This document shows, piece after piece, positions 26,440 through 60,218 of a DNA stretch of 64,000 nt. The position numbers and the translations under genes are program-made. Every line of letters starts with the position of its first letter. Within the stretch, counting starts at the first letter, position 1. This DNA comes from Bifidobacterium tissieri (GTDB lineage Bacteria; Actinomycetota; Actinomycetes; Actinomycetales; Bifidobacteriaceae). The stretch covers positions 124,001 to 188,000 of the forward strand of contig NZ_MWWV01000003.1 in NCBI RefSeq assembly GCF_002259645.1, written 5' to 3'. The notes beneath the pieces are model-generated. The model made no database searches. It had not been told where the DNA came from and was given only the letters and a program-made list of their open reading frames with translations.

Positions 26440-26625
26440 GACAGTCCGGTGGACTGTCACGTAGCTTTCCCGCGGTGGGTTGCCGACGCAACCCGCCGCA
26501 ACCGCTTTGGCCTGCTGTTTCCGCGGAGTGCGCGCTGGCCAATACGCGTGGAGGCGTAGGGAGACAGTCCGGTGGACTGTCGAGTAGCCGATTGCCGTCG
26601 CAACCCTTTGGGGTCCACTGTTTTC
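26440..26625. repeat. Two copies of a 19-bp palindrome with a shared tail (family C)
   Basis: GACAGTCCGGTGGACTGTC occurs at 26440-26458 and 26563-26581. Each is followed by a related segment (AGTAGC or CGTAGC, then GCAACC..TTTGG and CTGTTTT or CTGTTTC), suggesting a ~125-bp duplicated unit. A third copy with one changed base is at 48170-48188. Confidence 0.8.
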
Positions 26626-28848: not shown

Positions 28849-28930
28849 TTAGTGTGATCACACTAAAAAACGGGGTTGTTGGAATTTCAACGTTTTGGAG
28901 GGATCCGTCACGATAGTGTGATCACACTAA
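28849..28930. repeat. Palindrome-core-palindrome element, copy 2, in the prs/aroF divergent region
   Basis: TTAGTGTGATCACACTAA at 28849-28866 and the same word with one change at 28913-28930 (starts 64 bp apart). Between them is the core GTTGTTGGAATTTCAACGTT seen in the copies at 4.5 and 42.6 kb. The spacing and the position between divergent promoters also fit a pair of operator sites. The same 18-mer heads the hxlB gene (60194-60211). Confidence 0.7.
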
Positions 28931-29081: not shown

Positions 29082-30215
29082 ATGGCAGCTCTTCGCGGAC
29101 CTGACAGCAGCGAAGATGAACGGCGCAATCTCTCGGAGCGCGCGGTTTTTCCCGAAACGATGGATGTGAACATCTATCAGCTTGACCCTATTCCGGCACC
29201 TCGCTCCTTTATCCGTGACATCCCGCTCAGCGATAAGCAGCTGGATCTGGTGGCCCGTTCCCGTCAGGAGATTCGTGACGTGCTGCACGGCCGTGACGAT
29301 CGTCTGCTCGTGGTGGTGGGCCCCTGCTCGATTCATGATCCCAAGGCCGCGCATGACTACGCGCAGCGTCTTGCCAAGCTCAAGAGCGAGCTGAACGACG
29401 ATCTGGTGATCGTGATGCGTGTGTACTTCGAGAAGCCGCGTACGACGATCGGTTGGAAGGGCCTGATCAACGATCCTGATCTGGATGGTACGTTCAACAT
29501 CCGCAAGGGCATGTTCCTGGCCCGTCGCGTGCTGTCGGACGTGCTTGATCAGGGTGTGCCGGCGGCCACCGAGTGGCTTGATCCGATCACCCCGCAGTAC
29601 CTGTCCGACGCGATCAGCTGGGGTGCGATCGGCGCGCGCAACACCGAAAGCCAGGTGCATCGTGAGCTGGCCAGCGGCCTGTCGATGCCGGTGGGCTTCA
29701 AGAACTCCACCGACGGTTCGATCAAGGCGGCAGCCGATTCCTGCTACGCCTCGAGCTTCGAACACCACTTCCTGTCGATCAATCTCGACGGTCATGTGAT
29801 CGCCGCCGAGACCAAGGGCAACCCCGACTGCCATCTGATTCTGCGCGGTTCGAGTCATGGCCCGAACTACGATACCGAGTCGGTGAAGGCCGCGCTTGAG
29901 GCGCTGCGTAAGGCGAATGCCCCCGGTCCGAGCAAGGTCGGTCTGATCGTCGACGCCGCGCATGGCAACTGCGGCAAGGACGAGGTCGTGGAGGCCGAGG
30001 TGGTGGAGAATCTTGCCGAGCGTATCGCCGCCGGCGAGCAGGGCATCACCGGCATCATGATGGAGAGCTTCATCGAAGCCGGCGCGCAGAAGCCCGCCCC
30101 GCTCGATCAGCTTGTGTACGGCAAGTCCGTGACCGACCGTTGCGTGCCGTGGGATCGCACCGCCGAACTCCTGCGCACTCTGGCTCAGTCCGTACGCACT
30201 CGTCGCAATAACTGA
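29082..30215 (+). CDS. DAHP synthase, type I (copy 1)
   Basis: 377 residues. It joins phosphoenolpyruvate and erythrose 4-phosphate, the first step to chorismate and aromatic amino acids. Type I (AroFGH) motifs: VVVGPCSIHDPKAA, VMRVYFEKPRTTIGWKGLINDP, GARNTESQVHRELASGLSMPVGFKN and DAAHGNCGKDE. ATG 29082 follows AAAGAGGTG at 6 nt, preferred over ATG 29064, which would swallow that site. A second, clearly paralogous gene lies at 33593; the two may differ in feedback control. Confidence 0.94.
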   Translation: MAALRGPDSSEDERRNLSERAVFPETMDVNIYQLDPIPAPRSFIRDIPLSDKQLDLVARSRQEIRDVLHGRDDRLLVVVGPCSIHDPKAAHDYAQRLAKLKSELNDDLVIVMRVYFEKPRTTIGWKGLINDPDLDGTFNIRKGMFLARRVLSDVLDQGVPAATEWLDPITPQYLSDAISWGAIGARNTESQVHRELASGLSMPVGFKNSTDGSIKAAADSCYASSFEHHFLSINLDGHVIAAETKGNPDCHLILRGSSHGPNYDTESVKAALEALRKANAPGPSKVGLIVDAAHGNCGKDEVVEAEVVENLAERIAAGEQGITGIMMESFIEAGAQKPAPLDQLVYGKSVTDRCVPWDRTAELLRTLAQSVRTRRNN

Positions 30216-30453: not shown

Positions 30454-33333
30454 ATGAGCAACGAGACGGTCGTCGTAGTCGTAGAGAGCAAGGCTCCCAC
30501 CAATCTGAGGGTCAATGATCGCATCGAACCGGTCGATCTGGAACCGGGCGGCGTTCCCGTATTGCGCTGGACCGTCCCGCTGGTGGACGTGGGCGTGGTG
30601 AACGCGGCGGATGAGGTCACCGCGAACAACACGGTCGTCGCGTACGAGGTGATCGTGTCGTCCACGTACGACAAAGCCGAATCCGGCAATGGCGACGTAT
30701 GGGATTCCGGACATGTGGAGGGCGACGGTTTCGACGGCGTTTCGCTTTCCGGCATCGACATGGCTCCCAGTCGTCGTTACTGGGCCTCCGTACGCGTATG
30801 GCGCGGCACCGAGGATTCCAGCAAACCCACCGCGTGGAGCGAACCGACCACGTTCGGCACCGGTGCCGGAAAGCACTGGGAGGCCGCCGAACCGATCTGG
30901 CCTGACCCGCTCACCGCCAACCCCTACCGCACCGTGGAACTGCCCGAGTCGATCGCGGGCAAGGATCGTGAGATCAGCACCGACGATCAGTTCGCCAAGC
31001 GCCCCGATCCCATGACCAGCGAGCACAATTCGCAGGGCTGGGCCCTGTTCCGCGGCTACATCACGTTGCCGAAGAAGCCGATCCGCTGGGCCACGCTCAA
31101 CGCGACGGCCGCCAGCGTGAGCCGCGCCCGTCAGTTCGTCTACCGCATGTGGCTCAACGGCCACTTTATCGGATTCGGCCCCACCTTCCCGATCGACGGC
31201 GAGGCTCGCTACGACGGCTACGATGTGACCCGCTATCTGGTGCCCGGCCGTGACAACTTCATCGGCGTGATCGCCTACGCGCTCGAGGATCAGCGTTTCA
31301 TGGCCCAGCTCGACGTCATGTACGAGGACGGCACGCTTGCACACTTCGGCACCGGCGAGGACTGGCTGTCCCGCGTGGGCAACAACGTATGGCTGGACGG
31401 CGCGTCCGTGGGCACGCATGTGTACGAGCTGCCCGCCGAGAACATTCAGGCGGCCGCCTACCCGCGTGGCATGTCCGAAGTGGGCTATGACGACATCGAC
31501 TGGGCCGTTTCCAAGGTCAAGCCCGCATTCGACGAACTCAAGGCCACACCGTTCGACAAGCCCACCCTGCGCGAGCGCAAGGCGGTGAAGAAGTGGATCA
31601 CCGACGACGGTCGTCTGATCGTCGACTTCGGCCGTGCCGTCGCCGGCGGCATCCGTCTCGCTGCCCGGGTGAGCCGTCCCACCGATCTGGTGATTCGTTT
31701 CGGCGAGCGCCTGAACGATCAGGGCACCGTGCAGTACCGTCTCGACGCATACAACGAGTATCAGGACGTGTGGCATTACGTGCCGAACAAACTGAACGTG
31801 CCGGTCACCGCGCGCACGTGGGGCCTCCGTGTGTTCCGCTACGTGGAGATCCTGCCCACGGAAAGCAATGACGAGAACGCCGAACTGCTGCGTGAACTGC
31901 TCGACAGCGACACCGCGCTCGAGGCGCAGGCGCTGCTGTATCCGTTCCACGGTCCGTCCGACGGCTTCGCGTCGTCGAATGAGACGATGAATCAGGTGTG
32001 GCAGCTGTGCCGCAACACCGTCGAATCACTCAATGTGAATATGTATGTGGATTCGTGGACGCGCGAACGCATTCCGTACGAGGCCGACGCGTGGCTGCAG
32101 CAGCGCGCGCACATGTCGCTGGATGCCGATTCCAAACTCGGCGAATACTCCATCGACTATCTGCTGGCCAACCGTACGTGGCCCACCGAGTGGCCGCTGT
32201 ATCTGGTACTCGCCGTGTACGACGCGTGGGTGCAGACCGGTTCCCTGCAGCAGGCCGCCGAGCAGTGGGACAGGATCGTTGCGATGCTGCCCGACAAGTA
32301 TCTCGATGACACGACCGGACTGATCGTGAAGGATCCCGGCGAGAGCAGCACCATGGACGGCGATCTGGTAGATTGGCCGCCGGCCGAGCGTGACGGATTC
32401 GTCTTCGGTCGTGTGAACACGGTGATCAACGCGCTCGCCGCACAGAGCTATATGTGCGCGGGAGTGCTCGCCCTGAAGCTTGGCAAGGTCGACGAGAGCC
32501 GTCGCTACCAGCGTATTGCGTCCCGCATGCGCAAGGCCATCAACAAGTATCTGTGGAACGACGAGGTGGGTGCCTACGCCGACGGTCTAGATACGGGCGT
32601 GGACGGCAAGCAGATCGCGCACTGCTCTGAGCATGCGTCCGCGTTTGCGCTGGCGTTTGCGCGCGTTCCCGCCGAGCGTCTGCCTCGCGTGGGTGCGTTC
32701 ATCCGCTCCAAGGGCATGGCGTGCAGCGTGTATGTGGCGTCCGTGCTGCTCGAGGGACTCTACAAGGGTGGTCAGGGCGTGTATGCCAACGAGCTGATGG
32801 CCGCTTCCGAGGGCGAGCGCACATGGCGGCACATGATCGATGAGGGTGCCGGTGCCACCATGGAGGCGTGGAGCCGCGATCTCAAGAGCAACACCACGTA
32901 TTCGCACCCGTGGGCCGCGTCGCCGGCGTTCCTGCTGCCGCGCTACATGGTGGGTGTGCACCCGCTGGAGCCTGGATTCCGTGAGTTTGTGATGGCGCCG
33001 CAGCCCGGTTCCATTGGCGAAGCGAGCGCCAAGGTGCCGATTGCGACTGGTGTGATCGAGGCTGGATACAAGGTGTTGGGCGATACGGTGCCCACCGCCG
33101 AGGACCAGTCGCTGGATGGCATCGAGATCACGCTGGTCGTGCCGATCGGTACGACCGCCGATGTGATCGTGCCGCCGACCAAATCCGGTGCGCCGATCGT
33201 GCTTGACGGTGTGGAGACGGTGGTCGCGGACGCGCGGTACGGCATGCCGTCCACGATTCCGCAGGGTTCGTATCCGGCCGGCGCGCGTCGTATTCATGGG
33301 CTGACCGCTGGGCGTCACGTCATTCAGGCGTGA
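30454..33333 (+). CDS. Intracellular alpha-L-rhamnosidase, GH78
   Basis: 959 residues, no signal peptide. It removes terminal alpha-L-rhamnose from plant flavonoid glycosides or oligosaccharides. The order is: fibronectin-like N-terminal domain (APTNLRVN...RYWASVRVWRG), bacterial rhamnosidase beta domains (FRGYITLPKKP, VDFGRAVAGGIRL, FGERLNDQG), the (alpha/alpha)6 catalytic domain (DSWTRERIPYEADAWLQQ, WPLYLVLAVYDAW) and a C-terminal domain after SHPWAASPAFLLPRYMVGV. ATG 30454 is chosen where the family similarity begins; the ribosome site (AGAGAG) is weak. It lies between the two DAHP synthase genes with no transporter alongside. The upstream gap holds TTGGCTAACAATACGGCCAA (near 30,336), a possible operator. 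Confidence 0.87.
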   Translation: MSNETVVVVVESKAPTNLRVNDRIEPVDLEPGGVPVLRWTVPLVDVGVVNAADEVTANNTVVAYEVIVSSTYDKAESGNGDVWDSGHVEGDGFDGVSLSGIDMAPSRRYWASVRVWRGTEDSSKPTAWSEPTTFGTGAGKHWEAAEPIWPDPLTANPYRTVELPESIAGKDREISTDDQFAKRPDPMTSEHNSQGWALFRGYITLPKKPIRWATLNATAASVSRARQFVYRMWLNGHFIGFGPTFPIDGEARYDGYDVTRYLVPGRDNFIGVIAYALEDQRFMAQLDVMYEDGTLAHFGTGEDWLSRVGNNVWLDGASVGTHVYELPAENIQAAAYPRGMSEVGYDDIDWAVSKVKPAFDELKATPFDKPTLRERKAVKKWITDDGRLIVDFGRAVAGGIRLAARVSRPTDLVIRFGERLNDQGTVQYRLDAYNEYQDVWHYVPNKLNVPVTARTWGLRVFRYVEILPTESNDENAELLRELLDSDTALEAQALLYPFHGPSDGFASSNETMNQVWQLCRNTVESLNVNMYVDSWTRERIPYEADAWLQQRAHMSLDADSKLGEYSIDYLLANRTWPTEWPLYLVLAVYDAWVQTGSLQQAAEQWDRIVAMLPDKYLDDTTGLIVKDPGESSTMDGDLVDWPPAERDGFVFGRVNTVINALAAQSYMCAGVLALKLGKVDESRRYQRIASRMRKAINKYLWNDEVGAYADGLDTGVDGKQIAHCSEHASAFALAFARVPAERLPRVGAFIRSKGMACSVYVASVLLEGLYKGGQGVYANELMAASEGERTWRHMIDEGAGATMEAWSRDLKSNTTYSHPWAASPAFLLPRYMVGVHPLEPGFREFVMAPQPGSIGEASAKVPIATGVIEAGYKVLGDTVPTAEDQSLDGIEITLVVPIGTTADVIVPPTKSGAPIVLDGVETVVADARYGMPSTIPQGSYPAGARRIHGLTAGRHVIQA

Positions 33334-33346
33334 TCCGACCGGGTGG

Positions 33347-33382
33347 CTGGCTACGTTGTTTCACGTGAAACAACGTAGCCAG
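33347..33382. promoter_or_regulatory. parS-like ParB-binding site inside a 36-bp perfect palindrome
   Basis: TGTTTCACGTGAAACA at 33357-33372 matches the ParB/Spo0J consensus TGTTNCACGTGAAACA at all defined positions. It is the centre of a perfect 36-bp palindrome whose left half is CTGGCTACGTTGTTTCAC. The site sits 14 bp after the rhamnosidase stop, so the outer palindrome could also act as a terminator. Confidence 0.75.
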
Positions 33383-33592
33383 TTTGCCGGAAAACAGAAC
33401 GTGGCTCTCCTCGTTCGTGCGGTTTCAACCATTCCGTAGATTCCGTACAATGAGGGGAGCTTTGTATAGTTGGACGATTGACATGGCAACGGATCGTCGG
33501 CAACCGGTGAGATGGCCGGTCATGATGCATGCGGATGACGATGCATGACGATGGACGATGGCGGCGACGGGCCATGTCGGGGGAGGATCTCG

Positions 33593-34858
33593 ATGAGCGA
33601 GAACACAGAGAACAACGAGAACAAGTCAAATACCACTACTGCACATACCGATGTTGCGAATACCGCATCCGATGCCGAGGGCTCCGTCAACCGCGGCGAT
33701 GAGCTGCGCGCTATCCGTCGCGCACTGGATGAAGGCAAGAACCCGCTCAACGTGCAGGGCATTCCGCGCTGGGAGGATCAGGTCGGCATCAGCCGCATCG
33801 TCAATCGACGGGTCATGGAACTCGACCCGCTGCCCACGCCGGCCGAAGTGCTGTCCGATCAGCCGTTGGAAGGCGAGGCCCGGGAGCTGGTCGCCAGTTC
33901 GCGTGATCAGGTGCGCGCATGTCTGTACGGGCAGGACGATCGACTGCTCGTCATCGTCGGCCCCTGTTCGGTACACGATCCCAAGGCCGCACTCGACTAC
34001 GCGCGTCGACTGTCCGCGTTGAACAAGGAACTGGACGGCGAGCTCATGATCGTGATGCGCGTGTATTTCGAGAAGCCGCGTACCACCGTCGGATGGAAGG
34101 GGCTGATCAACGATCCCGACGTGGATGGCAGCCATAACATCCACAAGGGTCTGCTGCTCGCCCGCCGCATCCTGCTCGACGTGCTGGATGCCGGACTGCC
34201 GGCGGCCACCGAGTTTCTTGAGCCGACGTCGCCGCAGTTCATCTCCGACGCCGTGACATGGGGTGCGATCGGCGCTCGCAACACCGAAAGCCAGATCCAT
34301 CGTCAGCTCGCCAGCGGACTGTCCATGCCCGTCGGATTCAAGAACGCGACCGACGGATCCGTCAAGGCGGCCATCAACGGATGCTATGCGGCCGCCCAGG
34401 AGCACACGTTCTTCGGCATCGATCACATGGGACGTGCCGCCGCCGTCGAAACGCTCGGCAATCCCGACTGTCATGTGGTGTTGCGCGGTTCGAGCCACGG
34501 TCCGAACTACGACGCCGAATCCGTGCGCATCGCCATGGAGGCGGTTCGTGACGAAATGCCCGCCGATTCCGCGGCGGCCCACGGACTCGTGATCGACGCC
34601 TCGCATGGCAACTCCGGCAAGGACGAACACCGTCAGGCCGAAGTCGTGCGCAACATCGCCGCGCGTGTGGCCGCAGGGGAACAGGGCATCACCGGCATCA
34701 TGATGGAAAGCTTCCTCGAGGGCGGCAACCAGCCGGCCGCGCCGCTGCCGCAGCTCATCTACGGCAAGTCCATCACCGACAAGTGCATCTCCTGGCCGGA
34801 GACCGAGAAGCTGCTGCGCGAACTCGCCGCCGCGGTCAGCGAACGCCGCTGGAACTGA
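33593..34858 (+). CDS. DAHP synthase, type I (copy 2)
   Basis: 421 residues, 44 more than copy 1. Most of the difference is an acidic, Asn/Thr-rich N-terminal extension (MSENTENNENKSN). The catalytic core carries the same motifs: VIVGPCSVHDPKAA, FEKPRTTVGWKGLINDPD, GARNTESQIHRQLASGLSM and DASHGNSGKDEH (Ser where copy 1 has Cys). ATG 33593 follows GGGGGAGGA. It is followed after 77 bp by the nucleosidase gene, probably in one unit. The extension may carry the allosteric or oligomer-specific differences (inference). Confidence 0.93.
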   Translation: MSENTENNENKSNTTTAHTDVANTASDAEGSVNRGDELRAIRRALDEGKNPLNVQGIPRWEDQVGISRIVNRRVMELDPLPTPAEVLSDQPLEGEARELVASSRDQVRACLYGQDDRLLVIVGPCSVHDPKAALDYARRLSALNKELDGELMIVMRVYFEKPRTTVGWKGLINDPDVDGSHNIHKGLLLARRILLDVLDAGLPAATEFLEPTSPQFISDAVTWGAIGARNTESQIHRQLASGLSMPVGFKNATDGSVKAAINGCYAAAQEHTFFGIDHMGRAAAVETLGNPDCHVVLRGSSHGPNYDAESVRIAMEAVRDEMPADSAAAHGLVIDASHGNSGKDEHRQAEVVRNIAARVAAGEQGITGIMMESFLEGGNQPAAPLPQLIYGKSITDKCISWPETEKLLRELAAAVSERRWN

Positions 34859-42500: not shown

Positions 42501-42571
42501 CATGCCCAATTCTCGCCGTCACATGGGCCGTGTTATTTCGTCACGTGGGCCGTGTACGTGGGCCGTGTTGT

Positions 42572-42674
42572 GTTACGTGGGCCGTGCACGGCCCACGTAA
42601 CGGGGTCGCAAAATCGTTGAAAATTCAACGTTTCTATCGACTGTTACGTGGGCCGCGGACGGCCCGCGTAACAG
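42572..42674. repeat. Palindrome-core-palindrome element, copy 3
   Basis: A perfect 30-bp palindrome at 42572-42601 (left half GTTACGTGGGCCGTG) and a near-palindrome at 42641-42674 (left arm CTGTTACGTGGGCCG) flank the core CGTTGAAAATTCAACGTTT (42615-42633). Degenerate single arms occur just outside on both sides (42520-42570 and 42675-42720). It lies between two convergent GH30 genes. Confidence 0.8.
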
Positions 42675-42743
42675 TCGCGGCCCACGTAACGCGGCCCACC
42701 TAACGTTACGCGGGCCGACGTGGTCTGGGGAACGGCTGCATGA

Positions 42744-60186: not shown

Positions 60187-60218
60187 CAATCTCTTAGTGT
60201 GATCACACTAAGAGATTG
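60187..60218. promoter_or_regulatory. 32-bp perfect palindrome between hxlA and hxlB
   Basis: The left half is CAATCTCTTAGTGTGA and the right half its exact complement. The central 18-mer TTAGTGTGATCACACTAA (60194-60211) also occurs twice between prs and the first DAHP synthase gene. It could be an operator or a solo repeat. Confidence 0.7.

Follow-up and report, generated by a model that had tools for sequence, protein, structure and literature searches.

A parS-type sequence within a perfect 36-bp palindrome behind a rhamnosidase gene of Bifidobacterium tissieri: a candidate dual-use gene-end hairpin

The window, a 64,000-nt stretch of a single Bifidobacterium tissieri contig, contains an alpha-L-rhamnosidase gene on the forward strand (30454..33333; 960 codons with the stop; Pfam PF17389, PF17390 and PF05592), followed on the same strand by a second DAHP synthase gene, aroG2 (33593..34858). 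Between the two lies a perfect 36-bp palindrome, CTGGCTACGTTGTTTCACGTGAAACAACGTAGCCAG, which direct reading of the sequence places at 33347-33382. It begins 13 nt after the end of the rhamnosidase stop codon at 33333, and the aroG2 start lies 210 nt past it. At its center is TGTTTCACGTGAAACA (33357-33372), an exact parS 16-mer, flanked by a left arm, CTGGCTACGT (33347..33356), and a right arm, ACGTAGCCAG (33373..33382), that are exact complements of one another; palindrome, core and arms are all listed without a strand. An earlier note on this DNA had described a perfect palindrome of this length right after a rhamnosidase gene and, at these core coordinates, a match to the ParB consensus at every defined position, and both descriptions are correct. 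The neighborhood has further features of its own. DAHP synthase paralogues at 29160-30215 and 33593-34858 bracket the rhamnosidase gene, and two DAHP synthase matches per genome were found in 9/9 genus genomes searched, this one included. Upstream of aroG2, at 33404-33460, an inverted repeat, GCTCTCCTCGTTC ... ACAATGAGGGGAGC, surrounds a TACAAT -10-like box, and similar repeats are visible by eye 5' of aroG2 in genomes G003 and G008.

The core matches the parS consensus TGTTNCACGTGAAACA, as given in the accessible text of PMC7022226 and PMC10197239, at 16/16 positions, and it is the only site in the window that does so with three or fewer mismatches. A genome-wide scan recovers 9 exact copies, against 0 for a reversed control and about 0.0002 expected in 2.87 Mb at the genome's own base composition; with up to three mismatches the counts are 28 and 5. 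Palindromes at the other eight exact copies are only 16-18 bp long, and the ten extra base pairs at the window site have a chance probability of about 2e-6 per site, or 1.5e-5 across the 9 sites. Two general sources of such a structure were considered and rejected. One is a phage origin, for which the inner 32 bp have 0 matches in viral_contigs. A general excess of loopless palindromes is not seen in 922 kb, where there are 1192 at 10 bp, falling to 4 at 18 bp. Five loopless palindromes of at least 28 bp occur in those 922 kb, and two of the five are the window's parS and TTAG copies.

In the rhamnosidase transcript the palindrome is predicted to fold into a 3'-end hairpin whose apex is the parS 16-mer. 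The fold of 33334-33400 has a predicted energy of -37.7 kcal/mol (z -6.7), which 0 of 200 shuffles equal in stability, and it includes an outer helix in which CCGG at 33339..33342 pairs with CCGG at 33387..33390, both on the forward strand. A hairpin this stable, 13 nt past a stop codon, is a feature shared with intrinsic (Rho-independent) terminators, from which the window copy differs in being almost loopless, in having a predicted protein-binding site as its apex and in its tail. In the bases 3' of the palindrome, TTTGCCGG, 3 of 8 nt are T, a weak U-tail that does not amount to the U-tract expected after a terminator stem. The window hairpin is also absent from the output of a consensus terminator scan, and for these two reasons we do not class it with the canonical intrinsic terminators. 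Gene-end hairpins poor in U are nevertheless common in the genus: among 86 gene-end hairpins, taken from 58 loci of relatives as well as from the window, 13 have at least 4 T in 8 nt and 73, the window hairpin among them, have three or fewer.

The genome has the partners that a parS site calls for. The assembly comprises 2.87 Mb in 38 contigs, of which the 52-kb contig C6 carries parB (C6:5752, with a PF02195 match), dnaA (C6:13454) and three exact parS. Residues 202-399 of ParB align to the Spo0J structure 6sdk (E 2e-48), and a ParA-like ORF adjoins parB, giving the genome both a cognate ParB and a ParA-like protein. The window lies on a different contig, C23. The earlier note had argued that the window, if its parS is real, belongs to the origin-proximal domain, and the gene order does not support this. 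We inferred the origin distance of the window from relatives, with aroG2 and dnaA as markers, and in the 6 of 10 genomes searched that carry both genes on one contig the two are 377-463 kb apart, or 17.5-21.2% of rounded genome size. The ori domain has been defined as 20% of the genome, 10% on each side (PMC7022226, accessible text), and in all 6 measured relatives aroG2 falls outside it.

The same note held that a position far from oriC would count against the site, and this holds only in part. By the gene order of relatives the site is distant, but sister species have counterparts of other parS that lie far out in this genome, so distance alone does not mark it as dead. Two of them adjoin genes that in G008 lie about 95 kb and about 165 kb from the parS at the parB end, and a third adjoins a CydDC-type gene that in G008 is about 457 kb from the parB-end parS on the same contig. 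Outlying parS are thus not unusual in this genome, and we did not treat proximity to the origin as a strict requirement for membership of the parS class. By gene context, 7/9 of the genome's own parS can be matched to a site in G002 and to one in G003 (in one case as a 14-mer there); for the window site and the site at C36:73389, gene context revealed no counterpart in these two genomes.

The relatives found with the aroG2 protein are Bifidobacterium, the nearest of them including B. vansinderenii and B. callimiconis, and the aroG2 slot can be followed through the genus. The parS 14-mer is missing from the aroG2 loci of 8 other genus genomes (in G006 only about 240 nt upstream are covered) and from 80 aroG2 loci of relatives, and these parS-free loci lend no support to a conserved ancestral site. 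In B. vansinderenii, ordinary hairpins stand in place of parS, as judged by eye. Because the aroG2 loci of relatives are without parS, and because gene context gives no counterpart, the window parS has most likely been gained recently, unless the other genomes have lost theirs.

Long arms around parS are found elsewhere in the Bifidobacteriaceae. We gathered the parS 14-mers of this genome, G001-G008, G025 and G030, counting sites identical over 30 bases on either side once, which gave 87 sites that include those of G025, a genome chosen for its number of sites, and one from G030, chosen for its known 38-bp palindrome. Perfect palindromes of at least 30 bp surround 12 of the 87 (11/86 when the G030 site is set aside), against a chance expectation of about 0.008. 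The remaining 75 have shorter palindromes, two of them of 24 bp and none of 26 or 28 bp.

The extended sites differ from the others in position. Gene position was scored at 64 sites in eight genus genomes (this one, G001-G006 and G008; G007, G025 and G030 have few or no called genes and were left out), and palindromes were classed as extended from 28 bp in Bifidobacterium and from 26 bp in the Streptomyces-like set described below. Nine of the 64 are extended, and 7/9 start no more than 45 nt past a stop codon, as against 3/55 of the others (Fisher 6e-6 with sites treated as independent; this and the later Fisher value overstate the evidence, as sites are partly orthologous or neighboring, and the arm shuffles below likewise ignore relatedness). 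The exceptions are a 30-bp parS palindrome within a coding gene (L187) and a site scored as not near a stop (L204), though an ORF overlooked by the gene caller ends 22 nt from that palindrome. Four of the nine extended sites, in G001, G005, G006 and G008, sit 3' of a gene encoding a ParB C-terminus. Between G005 and G008 the arm bases are identical at 22/22 positions, compared with 26/40 for flanking bases (p 0.001). At the parB 3' hairpins of the four Bifidobacterium genomes, arm covariation is not significant, being reached by 179/2000 shuffles.

Outside the family, we sampled 296 genomes of the phylum, of which 116 have an exact parS, and parS palindromes of 30-44 bp occur there in the 7-10-Mb genomes of genus g39, which from genome size and gene order we take to be Streptomyces and call Streptomyces-like. 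In other families of the first phylum sample, three of five extended parS lie at gene ends and the other two elsewhere. The Streptomyces-like set itself comprises 40 regions from seven genomes and their listed exact sites (12/13 in G259 and all listed in the other six). Palindromes of 26-52 bp surround 22/88 of these parS, 20/88 reach at least 28 bp, and 66/88 are shorter. A stop codon lies within 45 nt of 21/22 extended sites and of 26/66 others (Fisher 3e-6, shared gene slots ignored), and at a cut-off of 28 bp the proportion is 20/20. Nearly all of the extended sites, 20/22, are located between convergent genes; they occupy about five gene slots, so the independent cases are far fewer than these counts.

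Two of the recurrent slots allowed the arms to be compared across species. One lies between an acetyltransferase gene and a serine-hydrolase-like gene in 6 genomes, and the other, in 7 genomes, next to a gene with the ending ALK/QEWW or one like it. Complementarity was scored at positions 9-16 from the center, with sites picked by slot and not by palindrome length. In the first slot the arms vary by species and are complementary in 47/48 cells, a value reached by 2/2000 arm shuffles. In the second they also vary by species and are complementary in 102/112 cells, which 0/2000 shuffles reach; this count takes in an orthologous-looking site that is extended to only 20 bp (L373:1560).

In two genomes of another family, f42, the parS sequence is abundant, with 108 exact copies in G208 (L275-L335) and 109 in G336 (L276-L297, L336 and L337); for scale, the largest number among 20 closed streptomycete genomes in a matrix search is 65, according to the accessible text of PMC8743542. 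We examined 99 of the 108 sites in G208 and a few of the 109 in G336. In G208, 92/99 are intergenic (21% of sampled bases are), 41/99 start at most 45 nt beyond a stop codon (noncoding bases within 60 nt after a stop make up 3.4%), and 62/99 lie outside a cluster at 2.19-2.375 Mb that has dnaA- and rpmH-like motifs. Palindromes of 28-50 bp surround 10/99, and 8/99 have a T- or A-rich tail. Eight pairs spaced 34-36 bp occur among the 100 parS listed, and by eye many sites have a longer flank in common, about GTTTTAGCACRAA. The f42 parS has the appearance of a core within a dispersed palindromic repeat.

Other palindromes and repeats populate the window. The palindrome TTAGTGTGATCACACTAA occurs at 60187-60218 and again near 28851 and 28915, and the genome holds 69 copies with up to two mismatches, against 0 in the reversed control. 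Of 42 exact copies examined, 6 are extended to perfect palindromes of 28-36 bp with site-specific arms, which shows that arms also grow around sequences other than parS. AraQ is not supported as the protein that binds TTAGTGTGATCACACTAA, its published consensus being TGTGAGCGCTCACA instead (PMC4746261, accessible text), and GTGTGATCACAC has no occurrence in the open-access literature searched. Hairpins of the form GACAGTCC-N3-GGACTGTC are found at 26440, 26563 and 48170; the genome has 5 copies, all on C23, and the outer arms of at least two are extended differently. A cluster of GTTACGTGGGCC-like repeats at 42520-42710 contains a perfect 30-bp palindrome at 42572-42601.

Set beside known systems, the window site has the exact core of chromosomal parS, the TGTTNCACGTGAAACA sites bound by ParB/Spo0J, along with parA-like and parB genes in the genome and several copies. 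It departs from them in its 36-bp palindromic arms, its gene-end position and, relative to chromosomal parS in the ori domain, a distance of about 0.4-0.5 Mb from oriC by the gene order of relatives. Neisserial DNA uptake sequences offer a parallel: in the accessible text of PMC2397512, inverted pairs of them are Rho-independent terminators, so that there too a short sequence that has a different function doubles as the stem of a gene-end hairpin. The concentration of extended parS at gene 3' ends, in copies that are partly orthologous, fits reuse of this kind; the window hairpin differs in having a single palindromic centromere site as its apex and site-specific arms, where the uptake pairs consist of two motif copies.

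The Streptomyces parS clusters of PMC8743542 likewise contain many parS, and in the seven g39 genomes a quarter of the 14-mers are extended, nearly all at gene ends. The main text of that paper covers the number and position of parS; the words 'intergenic' and 'convergent' do not appear in it, and 'terminator' is absent from the main texts of PMC8743542, PMC7174722 and PMC7022226 alike. Among the open-access matches listed, no title or abstract opening mentions a parS-cored terminator, in a search outside which most subscription papers fall. parS, ParB and gene-end hairpins are themselves established, as is, for the neisserial sequences, the use of a motif as a terminator stem.

We favor, with little better than even confidence, an interpretation in which the window feature is the parS-type apex of a 3'-end hairpin that ends or protects a transcript, in dual use with ParB loading. 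A short palindromic protein-binding site after the stop codon would have been lengthened by complementary arms into a long 3'-end hairpin of the rhamnosidase transcript, almost without a loop and with the parS-type sequence as its apex. Such a hairpin may end or protect that transcript, shielding the downstream aroG2 from read-through. The 16-bp core would still be readable by ParB, and the site could then serve both as an outlying ParB loading site and as a 3'-end hairpin. The computed basis for this interpretation consists of the core, the arms, their post-stop position, a stable predicted fold, recurrence at gene ends and compensatory arm divergence at orthologous loci elsewhere. Because extended sites recur at gene ends and keep their complementarity while the arms diverge, the arms look selected as hairpins with parS as the apex. 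The post-stop position, the location between convergent genes, the kept complementarity and the predicted RNA stability suggest that ending or protecting transcripts is their most likely role. From this we infer termination of transcription by the hairpin, binding of ParB here and coexistence of the two uses. The earlier note had suggested either a terminator formed around parS or a site with two uses; related sites at gene 3' ends and covarying arms lend weight to that suggestion, while the lack of a U-tract in the window hairpin and the presence of orthologues among the recurrent sites take some of it away.

A tighter connection is conceivable, in which the two functions are coupled and the composite has been selected as one device. 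ParB at the parS apex could alter termination, through road-block or anti-termination, or the hairpin could stop RNA polymerase from sweeping ParB clamps off their loading site. The exact coincidence of hairpin and parS points this way, as do the extended parS hairpins 3' of parB in four species, the convergent-gene setting of 20/22 extended Streptomyces-like sites, and arms that change in concert around a fixed core. Most parS nevertheless lie outside such hairpins, as the shorter palindromes at 75/87 and 66/88 sites indicate, and we consider coupling unlikely.

It is quite unlikely, in our view, that the site is a hairpin only, a terminator-like structure with parS letters at its apex that were inherited or arose by chance and that ParB does not use in the cell. 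The distance from oriC in the relatives measured and the lack of parS at the same place in related genomes would be consistent with this. Against it stand an exact 16/16 match where the genome-wide expectation is about 0.0002, and the company of 8 other exact parS, 7 of which can be matched by gene context in G002 as well as in G003.

The arms could also be mutational in origin, DNA polymerase having switched templates at the 16-bp palindrome and copied one flank, which would yield perfect arms devoid of function. Their perfection and site-specificity agree with such an event, the second dispersed palindrome, TTAGTGTGATCACACTAA, has extended arms at 6/42 exact copies as well, and in G001 one arm is common to a neighboring site that is without the other arm. 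Template switching is harder to square with the bias of extended sites to gene 3' ends and with arms that are better conserved than their flanks between G005 and G008. Complementarity is also kept at orthologous loci, although repeated switching could match arms too. The gene-end bias and the covariation together argue that the arms are kept by selection, and we regard a purely mutational extension as very unlikely. That the palindrome serves some unrelated regulator of the rhamnosidase gene or aroG2 as an operator is hardly credible, since for all its operator-like form and closeness to a sugar-catabolic gene it is located 3', not 5', of the rhamnosidase gene and matches parS at 16/16 positions.

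The dual use favored here for the window site might extend well beyond it. As a tentative possibility, there may be an Actinomycetota-wide class of parS in gene-end hairpins, often bidirectional between convergent genes, that would load ParB where transcription stops; the hairpin would bar RNA polymerase from the loading site, or ParB would help to end transcription, or both. The window copy would then be a recent, origin-distant member of the class, and the 108-109 copies per genome in f42 a case in which the motif has multiplied. If parS regularly lies within transcript-ending hairpins, centromere placement and transcription would be linked by sequence design, beyond position. The survival of ParB clamps under transcription could then be tested directly, the orthologous site series would provide experiments in laboratory Streptomyces with natural arm swaps, and terminator annotation would help to find parS and parS to find terminators.
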